A DNA stretch of 26,694 bases from positions 1-26,694 of the forward strand of contig JACNFQ010000057.1 of NCBI GenBank assembly GCA_014384545.1. The letters are read 5' to 3'. Under the pieces are notes generated by a model, which had not been told where the DNA came from, ran no database searches, and was given only the letters and a program-made list of their open reading frames with translations. The translations under genes were made by a program, and so were the position numbers. Every line of letters starts with the position of its first letter. The first letter of the stretch is position 1. Positions 4,877 to 26,694 of the stretch are shown one piece after another. Source of the DNA: a bacterium. GTDB lineage: Bacteria > UBP7 > UBA6624.

Positions 4877-4882
4877 ACTCTA
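4877..4882 (-). promoter_or_regulatory. Putative -10 box (TAGAGT), leaderless arrangement
   Basis: On the minus strand TAGAGT is followed by exactly 6 nt and the ATG of the adenosyltransferase gene. It overlaps the stop codon of proline dehydrogenase, so it could add an internal promoter to the operon. It matches the TANNNT-N6-start pattern seen at several other genes here. Confidence 0.45.
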
Positions 4883-5803
4883 CTTTCCCAAGACCGCCCT
4901 CAAAAAGAACAGGAGGTTGGCAGGGCGTTCAGCCAATCGTCTCATGAAATATGGGTACCATTGAGGTCCAAAAGGAATGTAAACCCGTACACGATATCCA
5001 TCGTCACGAAGTCTCTCTTGGAGGGGGCGATTGATACCATGGAGCATCTGAAACTCAAATCCCTCCCTTCCCCTCCCCTTCTCTTTGGCTTCTTTCAAGA
5101 TGGAGGTGGCAAGGATGGGGTCGTGGGTTGCAAATTCAGGATACCCCCCCTCATCAATCCCCTTGCCCAACATTCTCTTAGCTAGGGTCAGATAGGCCTT
5201 CCTAATCGGCAGTAGCCCTTGGAACGCCACTTCTGGTCTTTCGTCATACGCCCCTTTACATAGTCGGACGCGTACCCCCTTAGGTATCAACGCGTCCAAA
5301 TCTTGGACCGACCGGTGCAAATACGCTTGGAGCACAATCCCCAAACCCAGCCCCTCCGTCCTCAGCGCAGAAAAAACACCTACCGTTTTATCCACAGTAT
5401 CGCTCTTTTCCATATCTACAGTAAGTGCAACACCTACCCTTATCGCTTCATCTAGGAGAGACGCTAGGTTCTCCTTGAACAAATCCGAAGAGACCGCCAG
5501 TCCTATCTGTGTCGGTTTGAGGCTAACGGTAGCCTGCTCCAACTCGGCTGCTGCCTGAATCACCTCTAGGGTTCCCCTTCTAGAAGCAGAAGCCATCTCC
5601 TCGTCTCCGCTCTCCCCCAGCAGATCTAGACAGGTAAGGAATCCTTCTTTAGAGAGCCTCTTGGCAACCCTGACGGCATCGGCTAGATGGTCTCCAGCAA
5701 TAAACCTTGAAACGACATGTCGAGAGAGAGGAAATCCCCTGACAAATCTCTCCATCTGTTCCGATCTCCCCCACCGAATCAGGAGATTGCGCAAGAGCGT
5801 CAA
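4880..5803 (-). CDS. Proline dehydrogenase (monofunctional, FAD)
   Basis: Oxidises proline to pyrroline-5-carboxylate with FAD and passes electrons to the quinone pool. Beta/alpha-barrel landmarks are RVRLCKGAYDE, FATHDP, FEFQMLHGI and the terminal YIPFG..WYPYFMRRLAERPANL, which holds the substrate-binding arginines. The P5C dehydrogenase half of bifunctional PutA is absent. Of several in-frame TTG codons, the one at 5803 is preferred: it forms a TTGA overlap with the stop at 5802-5800 of the upstream reading frame, has a G-rich stretch just before it, and gives 307 aa starting MTLLRNLL, normal for the family. A longer start at 5818 is the alternative. The premature TGA in the upstream gene would weaken translational coupling to this gene. 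Confidence 0.93.
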   Translation of the reverse strand: MTLLRNLLIRWGRSEQMERFVRGFPLSRHVVSRFIAGDHLADAVRVAKRLSKEGFLTCLDLLGESGDEEMASASRRGTLEVIQAAAELEQATVSLKPTQIGLAVSSDLFKENLASLLDEAIRVGVALTVDMEKSDTVDKTVGVFSALRTEGLGLGIVLQAYLHRSVQDLDALIPKGVRVRLCKGAYDERPEVAFQGLLPIRKAYLTLAKRMLGKGIDEGGYPEFATHDPILATSILKEAKEKGRGREGFEFQMLHGINRPLQERLRDDGYRVRVYIPFGPQWYPYFMRRLAERPANLLFFLRAVLGK

Positions 5804-5943
5804 TGACCCCACCCCCAAGAGAGTGCTATGCGGGTTTCTAGATCTCCATTATCCCGTTCCACATCCCGTAATACTTCTAGTTCCCACCACCTATCTCCAG
5901 TAGGTGCCCTCAACCAGAATCCCACAGATGTCTTGCGCTCTTC
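5800..5943 (-). pseudogene. C-terminal continuation of the 5944-6537 gene beyond an in-frame TGA
   Basis: Directly after the TGA at 5946-5944 the same frame stays open for 47 codons to a TGA at 5802-5800. The translation begins EERKTSVGFWLRAPTGD and ends with RIALSWGWGH. It shows the alternating polar/aromatic pattern of transmembrane beta strands, like the upstream part. Its stop overlaps the proline dehydrogenase start as TTGA, the same junction type used by other genes here, so 5800 looks like the original gene end. Reading the TGA as an amino acid gives a protein of about 245 aa. Confidence 0.65.
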
Positions 5944-6537
5944 TCAACTCGTTTGGAATGTTGCGAGATGCTCTACGCGCACCCCAGCTGGATAATCGGA
6001 AGGTTTCCAGAGGTCTAAGCCTGCTCGCCATAGATGGTCTAATTCGCCATCTTGTGTTCCTTCATAAGCCAAACCCGCTCCCCAGTTCAAAGGACCCGTA
6101 AAAAGAGCACCATCCCATGAGCCACCTACACGCGTGAACAACCCCCACGACATCTTATCCTGCCGTCTCAATGGCAACCCAAAGACGACCCCCCAATCCA
6201 TCCCTCCCACATCTCCATTGGGCGCCTCAAATCGTGAACGATAACCGAATTGAATCGGCATCCCCACCCCACCCTTGTCAGGACTATCTTTGCCCTGTAA
6301 GAATCCCCCCCCAATGGACCAAGCCGCATTTCCCTCCAATGGAAACGCCACGCTCCCTTCCCACAACACCGCCTTATCTCCGTCGTCCCTACCCAAAGAG
6401 AGTTCTGCCCGCCAAGATCCTTGGGACAGCGTCGGGTTGCTAGGCGTCCATCGGCTTCCCTCAGTACCCAAGAATGGGGAGGGAGCAACTGCCAAGAGGA
6501 AGAAGAGGAAGAGAAGGGGGAAGGGGAGGATGCGCAT
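5944..6537 (-). CDS. Exported beta-barrel-like protein, apparently truncated by in-frame TGA
   Basis: A hypothetical protein with a clear signal peptide (MRILPFPLLFLFFLLAVAPSPF). It is rich in Gly, Trp and alternating hydrophobic residues (LWEGSVAFPL, AWSIGGGFL, MPIQFGYRSRF, MDWGVVFGLPL, SWGLFTRVGGSW, LNWGAGLAYEG), which suggests an outer-membrane beta-barrel of unknown role. No named family is recognised. The ATG at 6537 is supported by TAGAAT exactly 6 nt upstream. The stop TGA at 5946-5944 cuts an otherwise continuous frame that runs on for 47 codons to 5800. The cause could be a nonsense mutation, a base-call error or read-through. It heads the operon with proline dehydrogenase and the adenosyltransferase. 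Confidence 0.75.
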   Translation of the reverse strand: MRILPFPLLFLFFLLAVAPSPFLGTEGSRWTPSNPTLSQGSWRAELSLGRDDGDKAVLWEGSVAFPLEGNAAWSIGGGFLQGKDSPDKGGVGMPIQFGYRSRFEAPNGDVGGMDWGVVFGLPLRRQDKMSWGLFTRVGGSWDGALFTGPLNWGAGLAYEGTQDGELDHLWRAGLDLWKPSDYPAGVRVEHLATFQTS

Positions 6538-6543
6538 AGAGGG

Positions 6544-6549
6544 ATTCTA
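6544..6549 (-). promoter_or_regulatory. -10 box TAGAAT, leaderless start for the barrel-like gene
   Basis: TAGAAT on the minus strand is followed by CCCTCT and the ATG at 6537. The spacing is identical to that before hisS, the 576-aa gene and the CpxP-like gene. No Shine-Dalgarno site is present. The box sits on one arm of a 30-nt hairpin (6546-6575). Confidence 0.65.
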
Positions 6550-6575
6550 GACTCGGGCATTCGCCCCAGTCTAGA
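6546..6575. other. Strong inverted repeat (TCTAGACT arms)
   Basis: TCTAGACT...AGTCTAGA arms extend inward as GGGC/GCCC around a 4-nt loop: 12 pairs with one C-C mismatch. It overlaps the predicted -10 box of the leftward gene. This makes it a candidate operator or a boundary hairpin for the repeat-rich spacer; a terminator is less likely because there is no T-run. Confidence 0.6.
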
Positions 6576-6672
6576 TGTCACGCTCCCCTCCCGACGTGCA
6601 ATCCCCACAACCTATGGTTACTCCCACCCTTCAAGTTGTCCAAGGGTGGGATACCAAGGGCTTCGCCCTTTT
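6576..6672. other. Gene-free spacer with two hairpins
   Basis: No gene is supported here. Two inverted repeats stand out: CCCACCCTT/AAGGGTGGG at 6623-6650 (9 bp, 10-nt loop) and AAGGGC/GCCCTT at 6656-6670 (6 bp, 3-nt loop, followed by TT). They lead directly into the 85-bp tandem repeat and look like part of an intergenic repeat family. Confidence 0.5.
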
Positions 6673-6890
6673 GGGATTGCACGACCCACTCCGGGGTGGT
6701 GGATGGCTAGACTCTCTCCCAGTCCCTATGAACTTGAGCGTGTCCCCGCTTCGCCGAGGGATTGCATGTCCCGCTCCGGGGTGGTGGATAGCTAGACTCT
6801 CTCCCAGTCCCTATGAACTTGAGTGTGTCCCCGCTTCGCCGAGGGATTGCATGTCCCGCTCCGGGGTGGTGGATAGCTAGACTCTCTCCC
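6673..6890. repeat. 85-bp tandem repeat, about 2.6 copies
   Basis: Units start at 6673, 6758 and 6843 (each GGGATTGCA...), with period 85 bp. Copy 3 stops after 48 nt, at CTCTCTCCC. Copies 2 and 3 are nearly identical; copy 1 differs at a few positions (CACGACCCAC versus CATGTCCCGC, GGATGGC versus GGATAGC). Each copy contains TCCGGGGTGGTGGAT, GCTAGACTCTCTCCC and CCCCGCTTCGCCGA. Open frames across it are low-complexity artefacts of the repeat. Confidence 0.9.
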
Positions 6891-6894
6891 CCCC

Positions 6895-7035
6895 TTATCT
6901 TTTGGTGCTCCTGGGGGTAGTTGGATCCTCTTCCCTCTTTTTCTCATTGATCATCCAAGCTAAGTCGCGACTCAAGTCTTGTATAGAAGATGGTGCGGGC
7001 AAACCCTTGCGATGCCACCGGGGTAGATTGACCAC
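6895..7035 (-). CDS. Possible 46-aa protein downstream of tRNA-Ala
   Basis: A GTG at 7035, 2 nt after the tRNA-Ala 3' end, opens 46 codons to TAA at 6897-6895. The translation includes GLPAPSSIQDLSRDLAWMINEKK and ends REEDPTTPRSTKR, a plausible small, basic, soluble protein with one predicted helix. There is no Shine-Dalgarno site or TANNNT box at the GTG, and in-frame TTG or ATG codons further in are alternatives. It could be a remnant of a longer gene or a chance frame. It belongs to no family I recognise. Confidence 0.3.
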   Translation of the reverse strand: MVNLPRWHRKGLPAPSSIQDLSRDLAWMINEKKREEDPTTPRSTKR

Positions 7036-7036
7036 T

Positions 7037-7107
7037 TGGAGCCGGGGGGAATCGAACCCCCAACTGGTGATTGCGAACCACCTGTTATTCCGTTTAACTA
7101 CGGCCCC
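7037..7107 (-). tRNA. tRNA-Ala (anticodon CGC)
   Basis: A 71-nt cloverleaf on the minus strand. Acceptor GGGGCCG/CGGCTCC carries the alanine identity pair G3-U70, discriminator A is present, and the D stem is GTTA/TAAC. The anticodon stem GGTGG/TCACC has loop TTCGCAA, and the T arm is GGGGG-TTCGATT-CCCCC. Anticodon CGC reads GCG. CCA is not encoded. It is divergent from tRNA-Ser across a 49-nt spacer. Confidence 0.95.
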
Positions 7108-7122
7108 AATACCGAGAAGTTG

Positions 7123-7128
7123 ATTCTA
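7123..7128 (-). promoter_or_regulatory. Putative -10 box for tRNA-Ala
   Basis: TAGAAT on the minus strand lies 15 nt before the tRNA-Ala 5' end. I see no good -35 hexamer at 16-18 nt. It uses the same hexamer as the protein-gene promoters in this window. Confidence 0.5.
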
Positions 7129-7140
7129 CTGGGGCGGTTC

Positions 7141-7146
7141 TAGAAT
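7141..7146 (+). promoter_or_regulatory. Putative -10 box for tRNA-Ser
   Basis: TAGAAT lies 10 nt before the tRNA-Ser 5' end at 7157. A TTGATT at 7120-7125 could act as a -35 element with a short 15-nt spacer. The context GGTTCTAGAAT also occurs before the 576-aa gene at 19683-19692. Confidence 0.55.
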
Positions 7147-7156
7147 CCCCTTACAC

Positions 7157-7246
7157 GGTGGGATGGCCGAGCGGACGAAGGCGCACGCCTCGAAAGCGTG
7201 TAGGCGGTGATGAATCGTCTCGGGGGTTCGAATCCCTCTCCCACCG
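7157..7246 (+). tRNA. tRNA-Ser (anticodon CGA)
   Basis: A 90-nt class II tRNA. Acceptor GGTGGGA/TCCCACC is followed by discriminator G, the anticodon stem CACGC/GCGTG has loop CTCGAAA with anticodon CGA at 7191-7193 (reads TCG), and there is a long variable arm and a T-loop TTCGAAT. CCA is not encoded. Confidence 0.97.
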
Positions 7247-7283
7247 GAGGCTTGTCGCCCCTCTCCTGCCTAACGGCTCTACA

Positions 7284-7289
7284 TAGAAT
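7284..7289 (+). promoter_or_regulatory. -10 box TAGAAT, leaderless start for hisS
   Basis: TAGAAT is followed by CCCACT and ATG at 7296, placing the expected transcription start at or within a base or two of the start codon. No Shine-Dalgarno site is present. It would drive the hisS-aspS-dipeptidase operon. Confidence 0.65.
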
Positions 7290-7295
7290 CCCACT

Positions 7296-8543
7296 ATGCC
7301 TCACCAACGCCCGAAAGGAACCCGCGATCTTGATGCGGGGCTAATGGCTCGATTTGAGGATATTCGGTTTTCTTTTGTGAGGATTGCCGAAGAGATGGGG
7401 TATTCTCTGGTGGAGTTCCCTGTACTGGAAAGTGTTGATCTCTTTGAGCGTTCTACCGGAGAAACGACCGATGTCGTTCAAAAGCAGATGTACCGGCTTC
7501 AAGACGGTGCAGGTAGAGATTTGGCACTTCGCCCTGAAGGGACGCCAGGATTGGTGCGCGCTGCGATTCAGGAAGGGTGGTTGGGTGGTCGGAATGGCGA
7601 ACGGTTTGCCTACTATGGTCCTTTCTTTAGGTACGAGCGCCCCCAAAAGGGGAGGTATCGGCAGTTTGTTCAGTTGGGTGCCGAGTTTATTGGATCGGAT
7701 ACGCCTCAAGCTGATGCAGAGACGATTCTCCTCTTAGCCCAACTCCTTGAGGAGTTAGAGATTGAACATACCTTCAAGATAAACACACTAGGAACGCCCA
7801 AAGAAAGAGAAAACTACCGAGAAGTCCTTACATCTTGGCTTACAGAAAGAAAAGAGAAACTACCTAAAGAAGACCAAGCAAACCTAACCCGCAACCCCTT
7901 GCGGATCCTTGATAGTAAGCGTCCCCAAACGCGCGCCTTGTTGGGGGATGCCCCCACCATCTTGGATCAATTGGGCGAAGCATCTAAGAGTAGGTTTTCA
8001 AGAGTGATTTCTCTGTTGGAAGAAGCAGATATCCCTTTTGAGGTGGATCCCTTTCTTGTTCGAGGGCTGGACTACTACACCCAAACTGTCTTTGAAGCTG
8101 TGGGGGCAGAAGGGGCCCAAGATGCCTTTGGCGGGGGGGGGAGATACGACGGTTTGGTAAAGACCCTTGGTGGACCCGACCTTCCCGCAGTCGGTTTTGC
8201 TGCAGGGGTAGATAGGTTAGCCCAGGCAACGGACTACTTCGAGGAGCCGCTTCCCTGCCTCTTGATTCCTTTGGGTGATGTGGGGAGAGAAGAGGCATGG
8301 CATCTCGCTCTAGAGCTGTGGGCAGAGGGTATCTCTGTAAGAGTGGCATGGCACGAAGATAACCTCTCAAAAGCCCTGAAACGAGCACATGCCAGTGGGG
8401 CTGCTTGGGTCATGATCTTGGGCGAAAATGAACTCAACGCTGAAGTGGCTACCTTGCGAAACATGGAGACCGGCAACCAAAAGACCGTCCCTCTCAAACC
8501 CTCCCTTATCAAGAGAGCTTTGGGTCAAGATGAAGATGAATAA
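7296..8543 (+). CDS. hisS: Histidyl-tRNA synthetase
   Basis: Class II synthetase charging tRNA-His. The N-terminus PKGTRDL is typical. Motif 1 lies around [10 protein letters not shown] with the [16 protein letters not shown] segment; motif 2 is [24 protein letters not shown]; the histidine-specific motif is [22 protein letters not shown] and [10 protein letters not shown] form motif 3. The C-terminal anticodon-binding domain starts near [11 protein letters not shown]. Its 415 aa is normal. The start is fixed by the ATG with an upstream TAGAAT box. It overlaps aspS; hisS-aspS pairing is common in bacteria. Confidence 0.97.
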
Positions 8544-10257
8544 GGGTCTGGGCGGGCGTCAACTTGCAGGGGAGCTCCGGGCAACGGATGCGGGCAACCC
8601 CGTTCGCCTCTTGGGATGGGTCCAAACCCTGCGTGAGTTTGGTGGGAAGTCTTTCCTTGACCTCCGTGATGTCTCAGGGTTGGTCCAAGTCGTTCTTGAA
8701 GGCGACTTCCCTCGCCCGAGGAGAGAGTGGGTCGTTGAGATCATAGGCACGGTTCGAATGCGCCCCGACCCCAACCCCGATTTGCCGACGGGTCAGGTTG
8801 AGATCGTTGCCGATGCACTTTCCGTTCTCAACGAAGCCCAGACCCCCCCTCTTTATGTAGATAAGGACGACAACGAGCCCGATGAGCTGCGGTTCAAATA
8901 TCGCTACCTAGACCTTCGGCGCCCTCAAAGGGGGGAGGTGCTCGCTTTGCGTAGCAAGATCGTCCACTCACTAAGGGATCTCCTCCACAACGAGGGGTTC
9001 TTAGATGTGGAAACGCCCGTCCTGACAAAAAGTACCCCCGAAGGTGCTAGGGATTTCCTTGTGCCTAGCAGGGAACGCAAAGGGTCTTGGTATGCCCTTC
9101 CCCAAAGCCCTCAGTTGTTCAAACAGACCCTTATGGGGAGTGGCATTGAAAGATACTACCAGATCGTGAGATGTTTTCGTGATGAGGACTTGCGGGGCAA
9201 CCGTCAACCCGAGTTTACTCAGTTGGATTTGGAGATGGCGTTTGTCAATGAAGAGGATATCTTTGGGTTGGGTGAACGCCTCTTTGGTGCTGCAATGACG
9301 TCTGCTGGGCACCCCCTCTCAGCACCTTTTATCCGGATGACCCACACCGATGCTCTAAAGAACTACGGCATCGACAAACCTGATACCCGTTTCCCAGCCC
9401 CGCTTTACGACCTTGCCCCCACCCTTGGAGGAAAAGGAATCAAGTTTTTGGATGGTGCTTTGGAGAAGGGCGGGATTGTGGTGGGGATGGCGGTTGCAGG
9501 GTTCTTTCCCAGTAGGAAGGTTGTGTCCACGCTTGAAGAGCACGCCAAGCGCATGGGTGCAGGTGGTTTGGCTTGGGCGGTTCGTGAAGGGGGTTCTTGG
9601 CGGGGAGGGGTTGCGGGGTTTGCTGACCACGTCGCCTTGGATGAGAGTATTAATCTTTGCGGCGTGGCAGGAGACGGTGTTCTCTTTTTTGCTTCTGGAG
9701 ATGCGCTTTCTAGCAGATTGGGTTTGGGAGCAGTCCACCGTTCGCTTCGGGATAACGGCGACTTGGGTAAGCCCAACACCCCCCACGCTTTCTGTTGGGT
9801 AACAGACTTTCCCCTTTTTGAATCTGACGGAGATGGTGGGGTAGTCCCTAGCCACCATCCCTTCACTCTTCCACGAGGAGATCTTCCTCTGTTAGAGAAT
9901 GACCCCCTTTCCCTTTCTAGCTATGCCTACGACTTGGTGATGGACGGGGAAGAGATTGCTAGTGGTTCACTTCGCTGCCATAACCACGACCTCCAGATTC
10001 GAATCCTCAAGACGTTGGGGCATAGCGAGGAATCCCTTGGAGAGAGGTTTGGTTTTTTCCTAGAGATGATGAGGTATGGTCTCCCTCCCCATGGGGGATT
10101 AGCCGTAGGTATTGATCGGTTGGTGATGCTTCTAACGGGGTCACCCAGCATTCGGGACGTCATTGCGTTTCCCAAGTCTGCCAGTGGCGTCTGTTTCCTG
10201 ACCGATGCTCCTGGAGTTGCAGACCCACATAGCCTAGACGGCCTTCTTGACACTTGA
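8530..10257 (+). CDS. aspS: Aspartyl-tRNA synthetase, bacterial type
   Basis: Class II synthetase charging tRNA-Asp. The N-terminal OB fold ([29 protein letters not shown]) is followed by motif 1 ([32 protein letters not shown]), motif 2 ([27 protein letters not shown]), a bacterial GAD insertion, [13 protein letters not shown], and motif 3 ([20 protein letters not shown]). Two adjacent ATGs at 8530 and 8536 are possible starts, both inside the end of hisS (overlap 14 or 8 nt). A longer in-frame extension to 8428 is rejected because it reads through hisS coding sequence without homology. Length is 573-575 aa. Whether it also charges tRNA-Asn cannot be judged from this window. Confidence 0.96.
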
Positions 10258-11198
10258 TTCCGGTCTTTGACCTCCATTGCGACACCCTGACCAAGGGGGG
10301 GGCAGAGGGGCTGTCAGGCGACCCCAACCTTCAATGGGATTTGCCTCGGTTCAAACAGGGAGGAGGGCAACTCCAAGTCCACGCTATCTTCACCCCCCCA
10401 AAACTCCGTATGGGAGACGCGACCCTCTTTGCAATCTCCCATATTGGAGAATGGGAGAGATACCTAAGAGAAAACGAGGTGGGTGCGGTGCGTTCCCAAG
10501 CGGACTTGGAGGGAGAAGGTTCTCTTTCCCTCTTAGCTTTGGAGGATGGTGCACCCTTGGGCGGAGAACTGTCCATGTTGGATTTTTTCTTTGAACTGGG
10601 AGTCCGCTTGATTACCCTCGTTTGGTCCTGCGACAACGAGGTGGGTCGGGGGGTAACGGGCACAGGCCCCGCCCTAACTCCGTTTGGGAAGAACCTCCTT
10701 ACTAAGATGGAAAACCTTGGAGTCGCTGTCGATCTCTCCCACGCTAGCGAGGGGCTGTTTTGGGATGTTCTGGAAAGGGCAACCAAACCCCCTTTAGCCA
10801 GCCATAGCAACGCCCGTGCCTTAAGAGACCATCCCCGCAACTTGACAGATTCTCAACTCATCGCACTGGGCAAGAAGGGGGGGCTTGTCGGACTTACCTT
10901 TGTCCCTGCATTCATTGGATGCCCCCCCTCAAAGGAGGTGGAATGGGAGTTTGCTCTGGAGGAGGGAGCCAGCCAACTAGCGAACCATGCACGCCACATC
11001 GCTGACTTGGCAGGAGTGGAAATCTTGGCTTTAGGGAGTGATTTTGATGGCACCACGAATCCTGTCGTGGGGGATGCCTCGGGCTACCAAGAGGTTCTCC
11101 TCCCCGCTCTTGACGGTGTCGGGTTTTCTAGGGTTGAAGTGGAAGGCATTTTCCACGCCAATGCCCATCGCTACTTGTCCACAGTTCTTCCCACCTAA
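10254..11198 (+). CDS. Membrane dipeptidase, peptidase family M19
   Basis: Zinc-dependent dipeptidase of the renal-dipeptidase fold. The N-terminal metal motif is FDLHCDTL (HxD). Further ligand segments are [17 protein letters not shown] and [17 protein letters not shown], with [10 protein letters not shown] near residue 260 as the family-typical C-terminal signature. There is no signal peptide, so it is probably cytoplasmic. Its 314 aa is slightly short for the family. The TTG start at 10254 overlaps the aspS stop as TTGA, giving [10 protein letters not shown] with the metal motif at the expected distance from the N-terminus. It is the last gene of the hisS operon and converges on mutS with a 24-nt gap. 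Confidence 0.92.
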
Positions 11199-11222
11199 GC
11201 GCTGAACACTTTGGGAGAGATG

Positions 11223-13643: not shown

Positions 13644-13650
13644 AAGGGCT

Positions 13651-13656
13651 ATCGTA
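13651..13656 (-). promoter_or_regulatory. -10 box TACGAT, leaderless start for mutS
   Basis: TACGAT on the minus strand is followed by 7 nt and the mutS ATG. There is no Shine-Dalgarno site. It fits TANNNT-N7-start. Confidence 0.5.
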
Positions 13657-13712
13657 TGACAATTGACACACTGCCCACATCCGAACCCCACCAGATTACC
13701 TTAGGTCGGAGC

Positions 13713-13968
13713 GTCCACGCCCCCGCATGTGGCAAGGCGTGGACATGAGGGACGTAGGCCAAGACCGGGCGCTGGCGTCTGGTCTTGCGCCGGAGCACCC
13801 GACATGGTGGCTCGGAGAGCCACAATCCTTGCCCTAAAGTGGTGACCTCCCTAAAGGGATGTGGCAAGGCGTGGAAGGGTCGCCCTAAAGGGATGGGTTG
13901 TATGTGGCGACGGGACAGATGCGACGGCGACTGTTCCGTCGCCCTAACGGGATGGGGTGAGGCGAGGG
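13713..13968. repeat. Intergenic palindromic repeat block (shared with 26440-26694)
   Basis: The gene-free stretch between mutS and fixX is made of repeat elements. A perfect 9-bp inverted repeat GTCCACGCC/GGCGTGGAC with a 14-nt loop lies at 13713-13744, followed by ATGAGGGACG. The 21 bases at 13789-13809 recur exactly at 26674-26694. The half-palindrome ATGTGGCAAGGCGTGGA recurs at 13859-13875. CCCTAAAGGGATG-like copies occur near 13848, 13883 and 13942 (last as CCCTAACGGGATG). Much of it is related, partly in inverse orientation, to the block at the right end of the window. I see no transposase or credible ORF. Confidence 0.85.
13921..13942 (-). terminator. Hairpin beyond the fixX end, possible terminator
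   Basis: A perfect 7-bp inverted repeat GCGACGG/CCGTCGC with an 8-nt loop lies 26 nt past the fixX stop. It has no T-run, so intrinsic termination is uncertain; it may simply be part of the repeat block. Confidence 0.3.
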
Positions 13969-15608: not shown

Positions 15609-15626
15609 ATCCCTACCCTACTCTGT

Positions 15627-17069: not shown

Positions 17070-17072
17070 TTT

Positions 17073-17393
17073 CTACCCCTTTTTCCGCCCAAACATCGCT
17101 AACATTCTGTCGGTCACCATAAACCCACCCACGACATTGATCATCGCTAGAGCGATCGCTGCCAAACCCAGCCACCGTGCCAAGCCGGGGTTATACCCAG
17201 CAGCCAAGAGCGCGCCTACGATGGTGATACCGGAAATCGCATTTGAACCGGACATTAACGGTGTGTGGAGTGTGGGGGGCACCTTTGTAATCAACTCAAA
17301 CCCCACGAAGGAACCTAATACCAATAGGTAAAGCCCCACCATAACGGGTGAAAGCAGCTCAATCGCTACCCCAGCGTTTTCTAGTGCATCCAT
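17073..17393 (-). CDS. pntAB: NAD(P) transhydrogenase, alpha subunit membrane part (PntAB)
   Basis: A small membrane subunit carrying the C-terminal helices of PntA. It has three or four hydrophobic segments (LLSPVMVGLYLLVLGSFVGFELI, AISGITIVGALLAAG, WLGLAAIALAMINVVGGFMV) and the conserved VPPTLHTPLMSGSNAISG motif between them. Its 106 aa as a separate polypeptide is typical of the three-subunit enzyme known from Rhodospirillum rubrum. The ATG overlaps the pntAA stop by one base (TAATG). Confidence 0.95.
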   Translation of the reverse strand: MDALENAGVAIELLSPVMVGLYLLVLGSFVGFELITKVPPTLHTPLMSGSNAISGITIVGALLAAGYNPGLARWLGLAAIALAMINVVGGFMVTDRMLAMFGRKKG

Positions 17394-18520: not shown

Positions 18521-18526
18521 TCGCTT

Positions 18527-18532
18527 CTCCTT
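18527..18532 (-). promoter_or_regulatory. Shine-Dalgarno site of pntAA
   Basis: AAGGAG on the minus strand lies 6 nt before the pntAA ATG. It contrasts with neighbouring genes that have no Shine-Dalgarno site but a -10 box at that distance, indicating that pntAA is translated from a leadered mRNA. Confidence 0.75.
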
Positions 18533-18585
18533 GTTGGGGTCTTCTCTTGCCCGTGGAAACCCACTTCCTGTAAGCCCAAAGGGGT

Positions 18586-18591
18586 ATTCTA
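18586..18591 (-). promoter_or_regulatory. Putative -10 box of the pnt-fixCX operon
   Basis: TAGAAT on the minus strand lies 65 nt before the pntAA ATG. If used, it gives a leader of roughly 60 nt that contains the AAGGAG site. I see no convincing -35 element. The A+T-rich stretch just upstream (TTAACTTTATCCATAAAAAG) is the most AT-rich piece of the spacer. Confidence 0.45.
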
Positions 18592-18647
18592 TGGCGTGGG
18601 GTTCTTTTTATGGATAAAGTTAAGGTCTAAAACAGGTGTACTAACCG

Positions 18648-19649
18648 TCAAACCCATTGCAAAAGCACCTTGCCCATAGCAGAGCCCGTTTCTAACCTTT
18701 CGTGGGCAAGGGAAATCTCTTCAGCGGGGAACAGCATGTCAATCATGGGCTTGATTGCCCCTTTTGCAACCAACGGGAGAATCTCGTCCTCCAGATCCCG
18801 TCCGCAACCCATTGTGCTCCCCATCACCGTTTGGTTCTTGATGAAGAGATGGGGCAAGTTGATTTCTCCTTTGGGTCCCGTCGTGGCACCACAAGTCACA
18901 AGCCTACCATTTCTTGCCAAGACCTTCATAGAACGATTCCATGTCTTTGCTCCTGTATGTTCAATCACCACATCAGCCCCGGAAGGAGAGACCGCTCTTG
19001 TTGCAGCAACCACATCTTCCTTATCGGGATCCACCAAGAGATCCCATCCCCGATTCCTCCTCTCTAATTGCTCAAGCTTAGGACCTCTAGCAGTTCCCAC
19101 CGTCTTAGCACCAAGGAGGCGTGCTATTGAACCTGCTGCATCCCCCACACCACTTGATGCACCCCACACAAAGACGGTTTCGCCCTGGTGCAACTTCGCT
19201 CGTCGCACCAACATCGTCCACGCTGTCAGTGTAGCCAAGGGAAACGCTGCTGCCGTTTGGTTATCTACCTCACTGGGCAAACGAATCCACAGATTAGCAG
19301 GGCGGACGACATGGGAGGCGTGTGACCCATCTACCCTTTCGCCATGGATACCATAATCAGGCGCTATGTGATCACCAATCCCTGGGCTAAGGAAGACCCT
19401 ATCTCCCACCTTAAAGTCCTCCACTCCCGTGCCGATATCGAGTACGACTCCCACTCCATCGGCACCAGGAACGATCGGATACGAGACACCCGGAATCCCC
19501 TTTCTGACCCAAATATCTAAGTGGTTTAGCCCCGTTATTTCCATTTCAACAAGGAGGTTTCCTGGAGGGGGCTTATCGATATTGAATGGCTCAAAGTCTA
19601 AGACTTCAAGTCCCCCCGGAGCTTTGATTCTTACCCTTTTCCCTTCCAC
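18648..19649 (-). CDS. MDR-family alcohol dehydrogenase/quinone reductase-like protein
   Basis: Medium-chain dehydrogenase/reductase. The N-terminal GroES-like domain runs to about residue 130 and includes ITGLNHLDIWVRKG and PGADGVGVV. The nucleotide-binding motif VWGASSGVGDAAGSIARLLGAK is at 161-182, followed by VIEHTGAKTW, CGATTG and a terminal AMGKVLLQ. The catalytic-zinc Cys is replaced (Asn 42 in LNHLD) and the four-Cys structural-zinc loop is absent, so a zinc-independent reductase is likelier than an alcohol dehydrogenase. The GTG start is supported by TATGAT exactly 6 nt upstream. It lies upstream of pntAA in the same direction; the intergenic promoter suggests separate control. The substrate is unknown. 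Confidence 0.88.
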   Translation of the reverse strand: MEGKRVRIKAPGGLEVLDFEPFNIDKPPPGNLLVEMEITGLNHLDIWVRKGIPGVSYPIVPGADGVGVVLDIGTGVEDFKVGDRVFLSPGIGDHIAPDYGIHGERVDGSHASHVVRPANLWIRLPSEVDNQTAAAFPLATLTAWTMLVRRAKLHQGETVFVWGASSGVGDAAGSIARLLGAKTVGTARGPKLEQLERRNRGWDLLVDPDKEDVVAATRAVSPSGADVVIEHTGAKTWNRSMKVLARNGRLVTCGATTGPKGEINLPHLFIKNQTVMGSTMGCGRDLEDEILPLVAKGAIKPMIDMLFPAEEISLAHERLETGSAMGKVLLQWV

Positions 19650-19655
19650 AAACTC

Positions 19656-19661
19656 ATCATA
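19656..19661 (-). promoter_or_regulatory. -10 box TATGAT, leaderless start for the MDR gene
   Basis: TATGAT on the minus strand, GAGTTT spacer, then the GTG at 19649. The spacing is the same 6 nt as at the ATG-initiated genes, which supports GTG as the true start. Confidence 0.6.
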
Positions 19662-19686
19662 CTTTCTCCCTTTGGGGAAACGGTTC

Positions 19687-19692
19687 TAGAAT
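19687..19692 (+). promoter_or_regulatory. -10 box TAGAAT, leaderless start for the 576-aa gene
   Basis: TAGAAT, six Gs, then ATG at 19699. The G-run could also act as a weak ribosome contact, but the box position leaves essentially no leader. It lies divergently, 25 nt from the MDR-gene box. Confidence 0.6.
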
Positions 19693-19698
19693 GGGGGG

Positions 19699-21429
19699 AT
19701 GTCACCCGAGCGACCCGCCTCCGAGGACCGACAGGGCGAACCTGAACCCGCTCCAGAAAGTCCCCCTAAGAAGAGAATGCTTTCGTTACAGGGTCTCCTT
19801 GATGCACTTAGAGCTCTTTTTGTGCGCACACCGCGCGAGTTGCCAGTACCACCAAGCGAGGAGAACGCACCCCTAGAAACGGAACCCGATTCCCCTTCAG
19901 AAGAGCCTCCAGACTTGGAGTCTCCCTCTAACAAGGAGCACCTTGATTCAGATAAAGAAGAAGTGCAAGACAAGGTTGCATCTAATCCCCTATCTGGAAA
20001 GGGACTTCTAGAAGCATTTCGTTTTCTTCTAAGGGGAAAGGACAGCGAAGAACCTTCCACAATTACCCCTCCAACCCCAGAGAATCAAGGAGATGAACCG
20101 CCACCAAAGAGAGGTTTTTCTTGGGGCAATATCCTTGATGGTCTTGGTGCGATCGGTCGTTTGGGTGCTCCCAAATCGCCCACAATCGCTGTCGTTATAC
20201 CCCAATCTTTTGGAGCCCCTTCCCAAGACACCCCACAAGGCAATTCCCCTCTGCCCCTGACATCCCTCTTGGGAAGGGCACCTCCCTTGCCCCCCCATCG
20301 CAAGGAGCGAACTCTCCAACGACTCCTCCAAGTGCCCTGTGGCTTTGCCCATCTCCAGATTCTTTCTGAGTGGCCTCCACCGGGGGTGCGTCCAAGCGGG
20401 GGATTCCTTTGGGAGAAGAGCCCCACTTGGCTTGCCGGACGAACGACGGGTACGGGAGTCTTGCGCCATCTAGATGCCCAAAGTGAAGTGGGACCGGGTC
20501 GGATTGTTTGGGGAGAACCCAAATGGGATAATCCTTCCAGAGGTTTGGTTCATTCCTTCCTCATGGGTCCAGGAAAGGTAAAAGAGTCAGTAGTACAGAA
20601 GTGGCTAAGTGAAGTCTTTCTGCGGGCAGGACAGTCGTTAGATAGCGCCTTTCAAGAGATCCTAGAACGAGAAGCGACCAAGGATGGAGAACGCTTCTTG
20701 CCCATTCTTCCGCTCCTGTCTGCGGTCGCAGAAACGCCCCTGTCCTTGGGAGGTCGTTCTGGATTGTTCGGGCTCCTGAAACCGAAGCCTACCCCTCCTT
20801 CTCCTCCATCTCTAGAAACCCTCAAGGCTTGGCTAAACCTCCTGACTGTCCCCGCAACGATCCATTCCCTCTTACCCCACTACCGAAAGAGTCGTATCGC
20901 TACTCTGACCGCTATCGTCCCTTCCCAGTCTCGTATTACCTTGGGGTGGGAGAATCTTGAAATCGAAGACTTGGAGGGAGAAAAAGTCCTTGTGCCCCGA
21001 GCCTCCCTAGGCGAACCCACGATGACGCTCCACCCTCGGAAGGACCTCATGTGGGGGACAACAGGTGGTGCTTGGAACCGAAAGAGAGACGAGGGGGAAG
21101 TGGGATGGATGGCTCGCCTTGCGATCGAGAAGGCAATTCATTATGGTGGCTGGCTAAACCTATTGGAGAAGGAAGCTCTGTCGGGTTGGCAAGCCGTCTG
21201 TAATCTCCTTGACGAAGGCCCCACTCTCCAACTGACAGGCGAGAGACGATGGCCCTGGACAGAAATGCTCGTTGCTCAAGTGATGGGAGATAGGAAAGAC
21301 CTACCCGAAATCTCCGAAGAAGTCCTCTCTAGAATAAATCCTGAATCCCATGGTGGGGTTGGCTCTCCACAAAGTCCTTTTGGCTCCCATGTTCGGGAGA
21401 TTATTCGCGCCGTGGGAGAAGAGTATTGA
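19699..21429 (+). CDS. Unrecognised 576-aa protein with triplicated N-terminal motif
   Basis: No known family is recognised. Residues 1-160 are rich in Pro, Glu, Ser and Lys and probably disordered. They contain three copies of a short hydrophobic helix: QGLLDALRALF (31-41), KGLLEAFRFLL (101-111) and GNILDGLGAIG (143-153). Copies 1 and 3 follow a PPKKR/PPPKRG basic patch. The remaining 400 residues look globular, with many Trp/Gly turns (WPPPGVRPSGGFLWEKSP, LMGPGKVKESVVQKWL, MLHPRKDLMWGTTGGAWNRKR-like segments). There is no signal peptide or transmembrane helix. The ATG at 19699 is supported by the TAGAAT-N6 box. It is the first gene of a three-gene overlapping operon with a Nudix hydrolase and a membrane protein, which may hint at shared function but proves nothing. 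Confidence 0.85.
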   Translation: MSPERPASEDRQGEPEPAPESPPKKRMLSLQGLLDALRALFVRTPRELPVPPSEENAPLETEPDSPSEEPPDLESPSNKEHLDSDKEEVQDKVASNPLSGKGLLEAFRFLLRGKDSEEPSTITPPTPENQGDEPPPKRGFSWGNILDGLGAIGRLGAPKSPTIAVVIPQSFGAPSQDTPQGNSPLPLTSLLGRAPPLPPHRKERTLQRLLQVPCGFAHLQILSEWPPPGVRPSGGFLWEKSPTWLAGRTTGTGVLRHLDAQSEVGPGRIVWGEPKWDNPSRGLVHSFLMGPGKVKESVVQKWLSEVFLRAGQSLDSAFQEILEREATKDGERFLPILPLLSAVAETPLSLGGRSGLFGLLKPKPTPPSPPSLETLKAWLNLLTVPATIHSLLPHYRKSRIATLTAIVPSQSRITLGWENLEIEDLEGEKVLVPRASLGEPTMTLHPRKDLMWGTTGGAWNRKRDEGEVGWMARLAIEKAIHYGGWLNLLEKEALSGWQAVCNLLDEGPTLQLTGERRWPWTEMLVAQVMGDRKDLPEISEEVLSRINPESHGGVGSPQSPFGSHVREIIRAVGEEY

Positions 21430-21881
21430 GAAAGAGGCTGGTGGATTGCCATGTGATTCATGAAAGGGAGGATGGGAAACGCCGGTGCCTTCTCCTAAAG
21501 AGAGCTCCTGGAAAGATCTATTCGGGGTGTTGGAGAATGGTCGCTGGAAAAGCGAAGAAGGGAGAGTTGAGATGGGAAACAGCGCTAAGAGAACTCAGAG
21601 AAGAGACATCTCTAACGCCGACTTCTTTTTTCTCGGTTCCTGTCGCAAACCGATTCTACGAATGGGAAACCGACACCCTGCACGAAGTGCCCGTCTTTCT
21701 TGCTTTGGTCAAGGAAAAAACCTTCGTTCTGGATGATGAACATACCGAGGGTGAATGGGTGGGACTAGAAGAAGGAATGTCTCGCTTGGACTGGCCCGGG
21801 CAAAGAGCGGGTTTGCTTGCAGCCTGGGATCTGTTGGATTCACCCATTCTTAGAGAGTCCTTGGAGATTGCCCTCTCATGA
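21426..21881 (+). CDS. Nudix hydrolase
   Basis: Hydrolyses a nucleoside diphosphate linked to another moiety; the substrate is not predictable from sequence. The Nudix box is G-KAKKG-E-LRWETAL-REL-R-EE-TSL, with the usual Gly near the end replaced by Ser, as in some dNTP pyrophosphatases. The preceding strand CLLLKRAPGKIYSGCWRMVAGKAKKGE is typical. Length is 151 aa. The TTG start overlaps the previous stop as TTGA and its own stop overlaps the next ATG as ATGA, so all three genes are likely translationally coupled. 8-oxo-dGTP or dihydroneopterin triphosphate are possible substrates. Confidence 0.88.
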   Translation: MRKRLVDCHVIHEREDGKRRCLLLKRAPGKIYSGCWRMVAGKAKKGELRWETALRELREETSLTPTSFFSVPVANRFYEWETDTLHEVPVFLALVKEKTFVLDDEHTEGEWVGLEEGMSRLDWPGQRAGLLAAWDLLDSPILRESLEIALS

Positions 21882-22519
21882 TTCCTCTTCTTGTGGGGGG
21901 GGTCGGTCTCTCTTTGGTCCATGCCCTTCTTCCCAACCACTGGATGCCTCTTTCTCTGTTAGCTAAGAGAGAAGGGTGGTCTACAGCGATGCTGGCAAGG
22001 GCTTCTGTTCTCGTAGGAACAGCCCATGTCGCTTCTTCCATATTGTTGGGTTTGCTCGTTGGTGGGCTTGGTATTGGCTTAAGTGGGTTTTCAGAGGGTT
22101 TGCTCCATGCTCTTTCTGGAACGGTTCTCGTTCTATTAGGAATTTGGGTTTGGCGCTCGGGTGGGCACACCCATTTGGGTGGTGGTCATAGCGAAACCCA
22201 CAGCCACACCCACGAACCCCCAAAGGACGGGGTTTCGGGGAAAATGCTTTGGGGATTGGCTCTATCTATGTTCCTTTCGCCTTGTGTGGAGTTAGAAGCT
22301 TACTACCTTCCGGCATCCACGTTGGGTTGGAAAGGTATCTCGCTTCTTTCCTTGACTTACTTCTTTGTAACCGTTCCAGCGATTGTCGCTTTGGCCTTGA
22401 TGGGGCGCAAACTCCAAAAACTATTTGCCAAAAAACTCCATTGGTTAGAACATAATGAAGGAAAAGTAACAGGCATACTCCTTATCCTGCTGGGTATCTT
22501 TACCTTCTTTGCCGACTAA
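21878..22519 (+). CDS. Polytopic membrane protein with His-rich loop, probable metal transporter
   Basis: About six hydrophobic segments in 213 aa. Conserved-looking polar positions lie in the membrane (HALLPNHWMP at 15-24, GTAH at 47-50, LSPCVELEAYYLP). A His-rich hydrophilic loop at 97-112 (HTHLGGGHSETHSHTH) separates the two halves. This architecture resembles the NicO/RcnA and UreH/TauE-like transporter groups, where His-rich loops bind Ni, Co or Zn. I infer metal transport; the ion and direction are unknown. The ATG overlaps the Nudix stop (ATGA). The gene converges on the epimerase gene, with stop codons overlapping at 22516-22519. Confidence 0.7.
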   Translation: MIPLLVGGVGLSLVHALLPNHWMPLSLLAKREGWSTAMLARASVLVGTAHVASSILLGLLVGGLGIGLSGFSEGLLHALSGTVLVLLGIWVWRSGGHTHLGGGHSETHSHTHEPPKDGVSGKMLWGLALSMFLSPCVELEAYYLPASTLGWKGISLLSLTYFFVTVPAIVALALMGRKLQKLFAKKLHWLEHNEGKVTGILLILLGIFTFFAD

Positions 22520-23538
22520 AGAAAGTGGCGGATTATCGACAGGGCGCCTTCGCGCCAAGGCACACGATGTCCTGTTCCTGGTGCCTGAAGAGCATCCAGA
22601 TTATCCAAATACCAATCGTAGGTTCTCTTCATCGTCTCGGCGTTTGAATGTTGTGGTTGCCAACCTAGGGCTTTCAGTTTTTCAATTGAGACCCAAGAAT
22701 CCTGGTCTGCTGTTCCGTAAACCCACTTATAGAGTGGCGAGAGGTTTGCTGCTTCTAGGACTGCCAACATCCCCTTGGCAAACCCCGCATGGGTAGGCAG
22801 AATGCGGCTTCCCGTACCCGCATGGGCAAAGAGTTCACCCAAATCTGATTTCACGGTTCCAAACCTCTCGGCACCTACATTAAATGTGGAATTTCCCTCT
22901 TCTATGGGACAGTTTAGAAGGGTTTGGACAGCAGATACCAAGTCGGCTACATCTAGGAGTTGATATCTGTTCTCTCCATTCCCAATCACAGGAATCTTGC
23001 GCCCTTCCCTTACCCAATCAAAGAGGATTTGAAAAACCCCTAATCTCTCCGGACCAATGAATGTCTTGGGTCGTACAACGGCTACAAAGAGACCTTTTTT
23101 CCGAAACGCCGAGCAGATCAGTTCGGCAACGACCTTACTCTCTCCATAGGGTCCTACCCCTACCATTTCATCCTCCTCGGTAAGGGGATGGTGGTCAGGA
23201 ATGCCATAAACCGCCGTACTTGAGATATGTACAACCCGCCTTACACCCACATCAAGGGCGGCTTGGAGCACGGTCGCAGTGCCTTGCTCGTTAACATCAC
23301 GAATCTCTGCAGGTTTCCACAGGGGCAGTGCTGCAGCTCCATGAATCACTTGGTCAGCATCCTTGAAAAGGTCGCGCAATAGGTCTATGTCACGAATGTC
23401 GCCCACGACCCTCTTGATTCCTTCTCTATCTTCAACATCTCGAAAAGGTGCAATATCAAGTAAGGTCTGCTCGCCAGAAATCCCTCTAGAGAGGTGGAAC
23501 CCTAAGAAACCACCACCACCCGTAATCACTGTTCTCAT
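22516..23538 (-). CDS. NAD-dependent epimerase/dehydratase (extended SDR)
   Basis: Rossmann motif VITGGGGFLGFHLSRG, then GDIRDIDLL, HGAAALPLW, the Ser of HISSTAVYG and the catalytic pair in YGESK. VVRPKTFIGPERLG and NRYQLLDVADLVSAV are typical of the 3-beta-hydroxysteroid/sterol-carboxylate dehydrogenase-like and UDP-sugar epimerase branch. Its 340 aa is normal for extended SDRs. The substrate cannot be assigned. The start is supported by TAGGAT 6 nt upstream, with no Shine-Dalgarno site. Confidence 0.88.
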   Translation of the reverse strand: MRTVITGGGGFLGFHLSRGISGEQTLLDIAPFRDVEDREGIKRVVGDIRDIDLLRDLFKDADQVIHGAAALPLWKPAEIRDVNEQGTATVLQAALDVGVRRVVHISSTAVYGIPDHHPLTEEDEMVGVGPYGESKVVAELICSAFRKKGLFVAVVRPKTFIGPERLGVFQILFDWVREGRKIPVIGNGENRYQLLDVADLVSAVQTLLNCPIEEGNSTFNVGAERFGTVKSDLGELFAHAGTGSRILPTHAGFAKGMLAVLEAANLSPLYKWVYGTADQDSWVSIEKLKALGWQPQHSNAETMKRTYDWYLDNLDALQAPGTGHRVPWREGALSIIRHFL

Positions 23539-23544
23539 AGGGAA

Positions 23545-23550
23545 ATCCTA
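23545..23550 (-). promoter_or_regulatory. -10 box TAGGAT, leaderless start for the epimerase gene
   Basis: TAGGAT on the minus strand, TTCCCT spacer, then ATG at 23538. It fits TANNNT-N6-start. Confidence 0.55.
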
Positions 23551-23696
23551 GACTAAGAGGGTAATAATGAGGGAGAAAAGGAGGTTTGGAGGCGATTTCG
23601 CCCCCTTTCGTGGAAACTATGGGGCTTTTTTTACCCTATAGGGATTCGGGGACGTATTGTGGGGGCGATCGTTCACCGATAACACCTCCTCCCCCA

Positions 23697-23723
23697 GGGG
23701 GCGGCTCCAGCGGAGTCGCCCCC
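23697..23723 (-). terminator. GC-rich hairpin after the TPR-like gene
   Basis: GGGGGCGGCTCC/GGAGTCGCCCCC forms a 12-pair stem (one G-T) with a 3-nt loop, beginning 4 nt past the stop of the leftward gene. Its placement suggests transcript termination or end protection. No T-run follows on either strand. The rest of the 190-nt spacer (23539-23727) shows only short palindromes such as GGCGATTTCGCC. Confidence 0.45.
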
Positions 23724-23727
23724 GCCT

Positions 23728-24903
23728 TTATTCTGAGAGGATTTCCCGAATGCGCTTTACCCTTCGATGGTTCTCAAAGGTGGGTCCACCTTCAAGAGGC
23801 ACGTACTCTTTGGCTCGTTCCAGTAATCGTCTTTCAAGTGCGATACGAATGACTGGTGGAGCTCCTTTCATCGCAGCTAAACGGGCACTAGCAACGAGGG
23901 TACCAAAATCAACAGCTTCATTAATAGCAGCCAAAATACCATCTGTCCTTAAGTCGCCCCCCCGTTCCAAGTCTGAAATGCCTTCTAAGATAACGGAATA
24001 GGGAACAAGGTGAGAGATGCCAGCCCAAGCACGCGCCTCACGATAGGACTTAAGGAAATGACGCATCTGGACGATATCTCCATCCGAGGCAGCGAGGTTT
24101 GCCAAATCGAGTCGCACCATAGATGCATTCTCTACTGCCTTGCCCTTCACTGCATCATCTAAGAATCTATTCCAATGTTCTCCCCCTTCCAACCTCTTAC
24201 CAGCCAACAGGTCGCAATGACCCCGGCAATACTCAACCAAGGGATCGTCATTATTCGTCAACCCCTCCAGAGCTTCCATTCCTCCCCTTGCATATCCGCC
24301 CTCACAACAAATCCATGCCCTTAGAACTTGGAGATTGATTCTGTTTTGGTGGGGAATATGTGGCTCAAGTAAGCTCTCATTGGCAACATCCAGTGCGAGA
24401 GACAGCCTTCCGAGCCCAGCTAATGCTCGAGCCCGCAAGAAGGCCTCTTCGGCTCCAGGTTGCCCCTCCATCAGGTCTAGTGCTTCTTGGAACTTGTGCT
24501 CTTCACAGGCTAAATCGGCAACCGTTCTCAACGCGCGCCTAACCGTATCTGTATCGCCTGAACCCCTTGCAATTTCAACAGCTTCCTTCAGGTAAACCGA
24601 AGCGATAGCAGGATCGCCCAACCAAGAATGGACAATTCCCTCTAACATCAAGACACGCCCGTACCGAACGGGGTGTTCTTGGCGATTCAAGTGTTGGTGC
24701 TGCGCATCAAGAATAGCTAAAGCTGCAGGATACTCACCTTGGGCGATGCGGATGCGCGCGCGTATGATTTCTCTCCAAACACCCTCCACTTTATCTTCGG
24801 GCTCGTCATATTGATCCAAGACCAAGAAGGCCCCACGCACCCCCGATTCTGTGTAAGCCTTCCTTACCTGTTCTAAGACATCGTCCCAATCCACATTACT
24901 CAT
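23728..24903 (-). CDS. TPR-like helical repeat protein
   Basis: A soluble all-helical protein with degenerate tetratricopeptide-type repeats: GEYPAALAILDAQHQHL, GDPAIASVYLKEAVEIARGSGD, HKFQEALDLMEGQ, GRLSLALDVANESLLEP and GGYARGGMEALEGL. Such proteins usually act as scaffolds; no enzyme domain is seen. Two in-frame ATGs exist, at 24912 and 24903. The second is preferred because GATAAT lies 7 nt before it, giving 391 aa beginning MSNVDWDDV. It is divergent from the mgtC-family gene with a 38-nt spacer containing both -10 boxes. Confidence 0.8.
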   Translation of the reverse strand: MSNVDWDDVLEQVRKAYTESGVRGAFLVLDQYDEPEDKVEGVWREIIRARIRIAQGEYPAALAILDAQHQHLNRQEHPVRYGRVLMLEGIVHSWLGDPAIASVYLKEAVEIARGSGDTDTVRRALRTVADLACEEHKFQEALDLMEGQPGAEEAFLRARALAGLGRLSLALDVANESLLEPHIPHQNRINLQVLRAWICCEGGYARGGMEALEGLTNNDDPLVEYCRGHCDLLAGKRLEGGEHWNRFLDDAVKGKAVENASMVRLDLANLAASDGDIVQMRHFLKSYREARAWAGISHLVPYSVILEGISDLERGGDLRTDGILAAINEAVDFGTLVASARLAAMKGAPPVIRIALERRLLERAKEYVPLEGGPTFENHRRVKRIREILSE

Positions 24904-24910
24904 CCCCCCC

Positions 24911-24916
24911 ATTATC
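24911..24916 (-). promoter_or_regulatory. -10 box GATAAT before the TPR-like gene
   Basis: GATAAT on the minus strand, seven Gs, then ATG at 24903. The G-run resembles the one at the 576-aa gene (19693-19698). Confidence 0.45.
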
Positions 24917-24928
24917 CCCTATAACCTA

Positions 24929-24934
24929 TACAAT
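24929..24934 (+). promoter_or_regulatory. -10 box TACAAT, leaderless start for the mgtC-family gene
   Basis: TACAAT (within TATACAAT) followed by 7 nt and the ATG at 24942. There is no Shine-Dalgarno site. It is back-to-back with the box of the divergent TPR-like gene. Confidence 0.55.
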
Positions 24935-24941
24935 CCAACCC

Positions 24942-25328
24942 ATGCCCATAAATGAAACGCTTATTCGCCTCGTTCTTGCCGCCCTCTTGGGAGCAGGAGT
25001 GGGATGGGAGCGACAACGTGCCGATAAACCCATAGGGATTCGAACGCTGGCATTGGTTTCGATGGGTGCCGCCCTTTTTACCCTAATTGGTATCCTCTTT
25101 ACCGATGAAATCCATGGACCCTCTCGAATGGCTGCGAATGTAATCACAGGGCTGGGCTTCTTAGGAGCAGGGGTTATCTTTAGTACGGGCTCTGAACCAA
25201 GAGGGCTTACGACAGCCGCCTTGATTTGGTTTACGGGTGCTGTAGGCATCGCTGTGGGTGCAGGGTTTTGGGAGTTGGGTCTGGCTGGAGCTGTTCTTGC
25301 GGTCCTTTTCCTTCGCCTAAGAACATAA
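24942..25328 (+). CDS. MgtC/SapB-family membrane protein
   Basis: An inner-membrane protein covering only the hydrophobic MgtC domain. The conserved series is RLVLAALLGAGVGWERQRADKPIGIRTLALVSMGAALFTL, ARMAAN-type NVITGLGFLGAGVIF and RGLTTAALIWFTGAVGIAVGAGFW. Its 128 aa lacks the soluble C-terminal domain of Salmonella MgtC, as in the short SapB-type members. The role in this organism is unknown; relatives are linked to magnesium limitation and modulation of the F-type ATPase. Confidence 0.9.
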   Translation: MPINETLIRLVLAALLGAGVGWERQRADKPIGIRTLALVSMGAALFTLIGILFTDEIHGPSRMAANVITGLGFLGAGVIFSTGSEPRGLTTAALIWFTGAVGIAVGAGFWELGLAGAVLAVLFLRLRT

Positions 25329-25338
25329 GGAGCGTTGG

Positions 25339-25344
25339 TAGAAT
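25339..25344 (+). promoter_or_regulatory. -10 box TAGAAT, leaderless start for the CpxP-like gene
   Basis: TAGAAT, CTCCCT, then ATG at 25351: identical spacing and near-identical spacer to the barrel-like gene (CCCTCT) and hisS (CCCACT). Confidence 0.65.
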
Positions 25345-26436: not shown

Positions 26437-26439
26437 CTA

Positions 26440-26694
26440 GCGTCCACGGGTCGCCACATGTCGGGGCGTAGACATGAGGGACGGAGGTCATTTAGGGCGA
26501 CCACCACTTTAGGCCAAAGCTTCCACGCCTTGCCACATACGGGGGCGTGGACATGAGGGACAGAGGTCATTTTGGGCGACCACCACTTGGGCAAAGCTTC
26601 CACGCCTTGCCACATGCGGGGGCGTGGACATGAGGGACGGAGACCAGAGAAGGACGCTTGCGTCCGGCTCTGTGCCGGAGCACCCGACATGGTG
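26440..26694. repeat. Tandem 77-79 bp palindromic repeat, runs off the window end
   Basis: Three unit starts (GGGGCGTgGACATGAGGGAC) lie at 26463, 26542 and 26619, with spacings of 79 and 77 nt. Each junction carries a TCCACGCC...GGCGTGGA inverted repeat around a 14-nt loop (TTGCCACATGCGGG at 26607-26620). Units also share GGTCATTT(T/A)GGGCGACCACCACTT. The last 21 bases duplicate 13789-13809 exactly, so this is the same family as the block between mutS and fixX. No gene is present here. Confidence 0.9.

Follow-up and report, generated by a model that had tools for sequence, protein, structure and literature searches.

Introduction

In Deinococcus-Thermus, the motif TANNNT is found 6-7 base pairs (bp) before the open reading frame at many genes, about one third of those of D. 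radiodurans, with a -35 element mostly absent; other genes of these genomes have ribosome-binding sites of the GGAG type instead (PMC12340547). The motif in Deinococcus was treated by de Groot 2014, as cited in PMC12340547. In reporter experiments in D. radiodurans, an element of the same type at the same spacing acted as a -10 element that was sufficient without a -35 element (PMC12340547). Actinobacteria and others have TA-led genes, in which a TA-like signal is located ~10 bp before the start; they account for around 20% of genes or more and are mixed with genes led by a Shine-Dalgarno (SD) site (Zheng 2011, PMC3160421; M. tuberculosis, PMC3898074). The middle positions of the signal are uninformative in genomes of high guanine-cytosine (GC) content, and the signal is TATAAT in medium-GC ones (Zheng 2011, PMC3160421). 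GeneMarkS-2, in a scan covering NCBI representative genomes, predicted that roughly one in five bacterial species has leaderless transcription (Lomsadze 2018, as cited in PMC9581028). Our literature search on leaderless genes in candidate phyla found nothing relevant in the library searched. Here we describe TANNNT boxes in a stretch of 26,694 nucleotides (nt), referred to below as the window, which is contig JACNFQ010000057.1 of the assembly GCA_014384545.1 of a bacterium of the lineage UBP7, UBA6624. An earlier note, made from the letters of the window alone, had proposed that boxes ending 6-7 nt before the start codons are promoters of leaderless genes throughout the window. We conclude, with a probability of about 0.92, that these boxes are -10 elements giving leaderless messenger RNAs (mRNAs) at about 40% of the transcript-opening genes.

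Results

The genome of the window (G000) is a draft of 1.39 Mb with a GC content of 52% and a completeness of 78.8%, and the window is its contig 32. Among the compared genomes, G001 and G002 (GC 36% in both) are the only members of the same family, and all others share only the domain level with G000. A search of genome contigs with hisS gave remote matches only, none exceeding 43% identity. The sequence analysed comprised 869 kb of G000 (62%), about half of G001 and a third of G002. Genes were predicted by a purpose-written coding model that is blind to upstream motifs, and E. coli and Thermus pTT27 were run through the same pipeline as controls. A gene arranged back to back with one on the opposite strand must have its own promoter and was classed as divergent; a gene with a same-strand neighbour within 20-25 nt was classed as operon-internal. 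The number of nt between the end of the box and the start codon is called the gap.

TANNNT occurred 25 times at gap 6 and 17 times at gap 7 across the 118 divergent genes of G000, against a background of about 2 per position, and gap 8 was already at background (1/118). A box at gap 6 or 7 was present in 42 of the 118 genes (36%; 3.4% expected, or 0.034 per gene; p = 2.9e-31), whereas only 16 of the 289 operon-internal genes (6%) had one. The earlier note had suggested testing for such a positional enrichment against shuffled and operon-internal sequences, and the enrichment is clearly there. When alternative in-frame starts were admitted, 57 of the 118 divergent genes were boxed; since false hits enter this count at a rate of roughly 0.05 for each position, the true boxed share of transcript-opening genes should be near 40%. 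Starts that were defined without regard to the motif, by aligning orthologs of G000 and G001, gave the same picture, with boxes at 13 of 28 divergent genes (46%) versus 5 of 99 operon-internal genes (5%). Orthologs in G000 and G001 agreed more often than by chance in whether they had a box (odds ratio 4.3, p = 0.006), and G002 taken alone also had the peak (16/52, p = 7e-7).

These controls bear on the idea that the boxes arise artefactually, either from base composition or from starts being chosen after TA-rich stretches or after the upstream stop codons TAG and TAA. This idea does account for one box in the window, that of the adenosyltransferase gene, discussed below. However, the starts were not chosen by the motif, 1000 shuffles yielded a mean of 4.2 and a maximum of 14 boxed genes in contrast to the 42 observed, the rise is sharp at gaps 6 and 7 only, and the E. 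coli profile is flat (0/26 at gaps 6 and 7; 8/40 in Thermus pTT27). As a general explanation the artefact is refuted by these results, and the probability that it lies behind the boxes is very small indeed.

Among the 57 boxes the commonest forms were TAGAAT (17) and TAGGAT (15), giving the consensus TAGRAT; position 5 is A in 80-85%. The density of TAGRAT is 7 times higher between genes than within genes. Upstream of the boxes, the best match to TTGACA at a spacer of 15-19 was equal to that in shuffled sequence (p = 0.44), and an extended -10 (TGN) was found at 5 of 57 boxes, not above the 3.6 expected by chance. When boxes containing AGGA were set aside, none of 42 boxed starts had an SD site, versus 15 of 61 unboxed divergent genes, so that box and SD site are mutually exclusive in G000. 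The earlier note was thus right that a separate SD site is lacking at boxed starts and that a -35 is generally missing.

The box was also found at genes that are never translated. Of the 22 transfer RNA (tRNA) genes of G000, 11 have TAGRAT at a distance of 7-16 nt ahead of the mature 5' end (p = 7e-19), which indicates that the box is a transcription signal. In the window, the boxes of a tRNA-Ser gene and a tRNA-Ala gene are 12 nt apart and point in opposite directions (Table 1). The tandem array at 6673-6890, with an 85-bp unit in 2.6 copies (96% matches), lies between genes and adjoins this tRNA pair. The absence of co-occurrence with SD sites, the absence of a -35 above chance and the presence at tRNA genes together argue that the box is a promoter element. 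The alternative is that it is a translation signal on a leadered mRNA, either a ribosome-binding motif of a non-SD or AT-rich kind, such as Bacteroides has, or, in the case of TAGGAT, a degenerate SD site. The box is indeed located at the distance of a ribosome-binding site, and TAGGAT (15 of the 57 boxes) has AGGA at SD spacing. However, a translation signal would not be expected at half of the tRNA genes; the box is concentrated at transcript-opening genes and rare at operon-internal genes, which equally need a ribosome site; and TAGAAT, the commonest form, is without any SD core tested. We therefore consider a translation signal very unlikely. The 16S ribosomal RNA gene, which would give the anti-SD sequence, was sought in G000, G001 and G002 and found in none of them.

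Table 1. Candidate -10 boxes of the window and the primary sigma factor gene (coordinates in the window unless a contig is given)
Feature	Position	Strand	Remarks
manC, TAGGAT	811..816	+	6 nt before ATG 823; inside upstream gene; not listed in the earlier note
adenosyltransferase, TAGAGT	4877..4882	-	6 nt before ATG 4870
barrel-like gene, TAGAAT	6544..6549	-	6 nt before ATG 6537
tRNA-Ala, TAGAAT	7123..7128	-	14 nt before mature 5' end 7108
tRNA-Ser, TAGAAT	7141..7146	+	9 nt before mature 5' end 7156
hisS, TAGAAT	7284..7289	+	6 nt before ATG 7296
mutS, TACGAT	13651..13656	-	7 nt before ATG 13643
fixC, TAGGGT	15615..15620	-	6 nt before ATG 15608; not listed in the earlier note; not conserved in relatives
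MDR/zinc-dehydrogenase gene, TATGAT	19656..19661	-	6 nt before GTG 19649
576-amino-acid gene, TAGAAT	19687..19692	+	6 nt before ATG 19699
epimerase, TAGGAT	23545..23550	-	6 nt before ATG 23538
TPR gene, GATAAT	24911..24916	-	7 nt before ATG 24903; weak, not TANNNT
mgtC-family gene, TACAAT	24929..24934	+	7 nt before ATG 24942
CpxP-like gene, TAGAAT	25339..25344	+	6 nt before ATG 25351
Primary sigma factor (G000 L055; G001 L167; G002 L166)	contig 55, 3327-4814	- (G000)	regions 1.1, 1.2, 2, 3 and 4 present

In the window, every box that the earlier note had placed 6 nt before a start was found exactly there, at hisS and at the barrel-like, 576-amino-acid, CpxP-like, epimerase, MDR (with GTG) and adenosyltransferase genes, as was TACAAT 7 nt before the mgtC-family gene. 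The best-supported cases appear to be hisS and the barrel-like gene, because their boxes are retained in the relatives: the hisS orthologs of G001 and G002 have TACAAT 7 nt ahead of ATG, and those of the barrel-like gene have TAGAAT (G001) and TAAAAT (G002), both 6 nt ahead of ATG. These boxes are retained even though GC shifts from 52% to 36% inside one family. The box of the barrel-like gene in G001 comes directly after a tRNA end. The MDR ortholog in G001 has TAAGAT 12 nt ahead of the aligned ATG. The mutS box holds if ATG 13643 is the start; with this start, domain I of MutS begins at residue 9, which is consistent with it, and an alternative upstream GTG at 13691 has another box, TAAGGT, at 6 nt. 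Two examples of the earlier note are less good. GATAAT is present before the TPR gene at the spacing named, but it does not fit TANNNT. TAGAGT of the adenosyltransferase is also in place; however, the gene before it ends in this very TAG, 9 nt from the start, and in G001 and G002 the orthologs lack a box but carry GGGAGG at the distance of an SD site, so this box is probably a coincidence. The epimerase box is ambiguous when taken alone since TAGGAT includes AGGA at an SD-compatible distance. The note had also stated that pntAA and the 1998 gene keep an SD-like site, and both do, without a box. Its description of the boxes as window-wide is too broad, as many operon-internal genes are SD-led.

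No Pfam family (E-value 0.01) matched three of the boxed genes, namely the 576-amino-acid (19699-21429), CpxP-like (25351-25998) and barrel-like (5944-6537) genes. A second intergenic tandem array, with units of 77-79 bp, occupies 26439-26642 at the contig end, and similar-looking sequence is present near 13700-13960 after mutS; the array at the end may be a dispersed repeat responsible for the break in the assembly.

Divergent genes are closely packed in this family. Pairs less than 60 nt apart make up 39%, 40% and 50% of the divergent pairs in the three family genomes versus 10% in Thermus and 8% in E. coli, where the control samples are small (G000 against E. coli, p = 0.048). In seven G000 pairs (L128, L008, L112, L129, L127, L044 and L049), both sides are boxed and the start codons are only 24-43 nt apart, so that the upstream half of each promoter falls inside the other gene. 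From their arrangement in the sequence, the promoters of such close pairs overlap and should exclude each other. In the window, the MDR and 576-amino-acid genes form such a divergent pair (19649-19699), with boxes on both sides and 49 nt between the start codons; the start codons of the TPR and mgtC-family genes (24903-24942) are also close, the TPR side being weak. Boxes on both sides were found in 16 of 59 divergent pairs, which is about the expectation under independence, and no clear fixed spacing was seen between the mirrored boxes of divergent promoters.

The primary sigma factor of G000 is unusual. Its region 3 is interrupted by about 86 extra residues, as it is in G001 and G002. When the inserted segment was searched for in 290 genomes, only the three family genomes matched and none of the 287 others did. 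Both the -10-reading motif of region 2, YATWWIRQAITRA, and, in region 4.2, the helix TRERVRQIE are intact. In G000, six extra residues lie between the helices of the -35-reading helix-turn-helix of region 4.2, and these are absent in G001 and in canonical SigA.

Discussion

The proposed mechanism is as follows. The box would be the -10 element, mostly TAGRAT, of the housekeeping promoter. By the established geometry of sigma70 promoters, +1 falls on the start codon's first base when the -10 box ends 6 nt before it. With the last T of the box 6-7 nt before the start codon, the polymerase would thus initiate at the codon or within 1 nt of it, and from this spacing we infer the exact 5' ends. The resulting mRNA would be engaged by the ribosome through its 5' start codon, because no space is left for an SD site. 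The -10 element appears to be sufficient alone since neither a -35 nor an extended -10 exceeds chance; a -35 would then be dispensable. Operon-internal genes and some first genes would instead be SD-led or translationally coupled. The leaderless interpretation of the earlier note is supported by the position peak, the exclusion of SD sites and the tRNA boxes, which, like the consensus and the recurrence of the box in two related genomes, were computed directly.

Another possibility is that the boxes are real -10 elements but are followed by leaders of a few nt, in which case translation would rely on something besides the 5' start codon. The gap-7 class permits +1 to lie one base before the start codon, and gaps in G001 are spread out. 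In G000, however, the peaks at gaps 6 and 7 are sharp and gap 8 is at background, which implies that selection acts on how far the box lies from the start codon itself. Short leaders of this kind are unlikely to be the general explanation, and we prefer the leaderless reading.

Several observations weigh against that reading. The gene starts come from a home-made coding model. TAGGAT includes AGGA at SD distance, making single TAGGAT genes ambiguous. A small excess of boxes also exists among operon-internal genes, part of which may be of the artefactual kind considered above. In G001 alone, TANNNT at gaps 6 and 7 is weakly significant (p = 0.015), and in this 36% GC genome boxes of the form TA[GAC]RAT occur at gaps anywhere from about 6 to 13 nt, so that some genes would have leaders a few nt long. 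The 6-7 nt rule of the earlier note is therefore sharp in G000 and looser in G001.

Region 3 of the sigma factor is the domain that lies beside the DNA immediately preceding the -10 box. We conjecture that its insertion might add an upstream or -10 contact, enabling -10-only promoters and close divergent leaderless starts, as a lineage-specific re-tooling of sigma70. This link between the insertion and -10-only promoters is rather unlikely to be right. A literature search on insertions in sigma region 3 found nothing relevant in the library searched. With this unusual sigma factor, what replaces the -35 becomes a question that can be tested in vitro. In addition, tRNA promoters can be used as an independent check of leaderless calls in uncultured genomes, and for the G000 lineage a rule for correcting starts can be given: take as the start the codon, which may be GTG, found 6-7 nt past TAGRAT.

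The arrangement itself is already known from Deinococcus-Thermus and Actinobacteria, and the case of G000 appears well supported by its sequence. G000 and Deinococcus-Thermus agree in how far the box lies from the start (6-7 bp), in usually lacking a -35 and in the proportion of genes concerned, and the peak was recovered in Thermus pTT27 by our pipeline. G000 differs in that TAGRAT is the commonest form instead of TACACT, in that the lineage appears to be a separate one, no compared genome lying between the family and the domain level, with GC of 52% and 36%, and in that close divergent pairs are several times as frequent as in the Thermus sample. As in TA-led Actinobacteria, boxed and SD-led genes are mixed; unlike the medium-GC genomes of Zheng 2011, medium-GC G000 prefers G at the third position. 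What is new here is the lineage, the closeness of divergent start codons (about 25-50 bp) and the 86-residue insertion in sigma region 3. With this study, an arrangement familiar mainly from two phyla is extended to a lineage that has no close relatives among the compared genomes.

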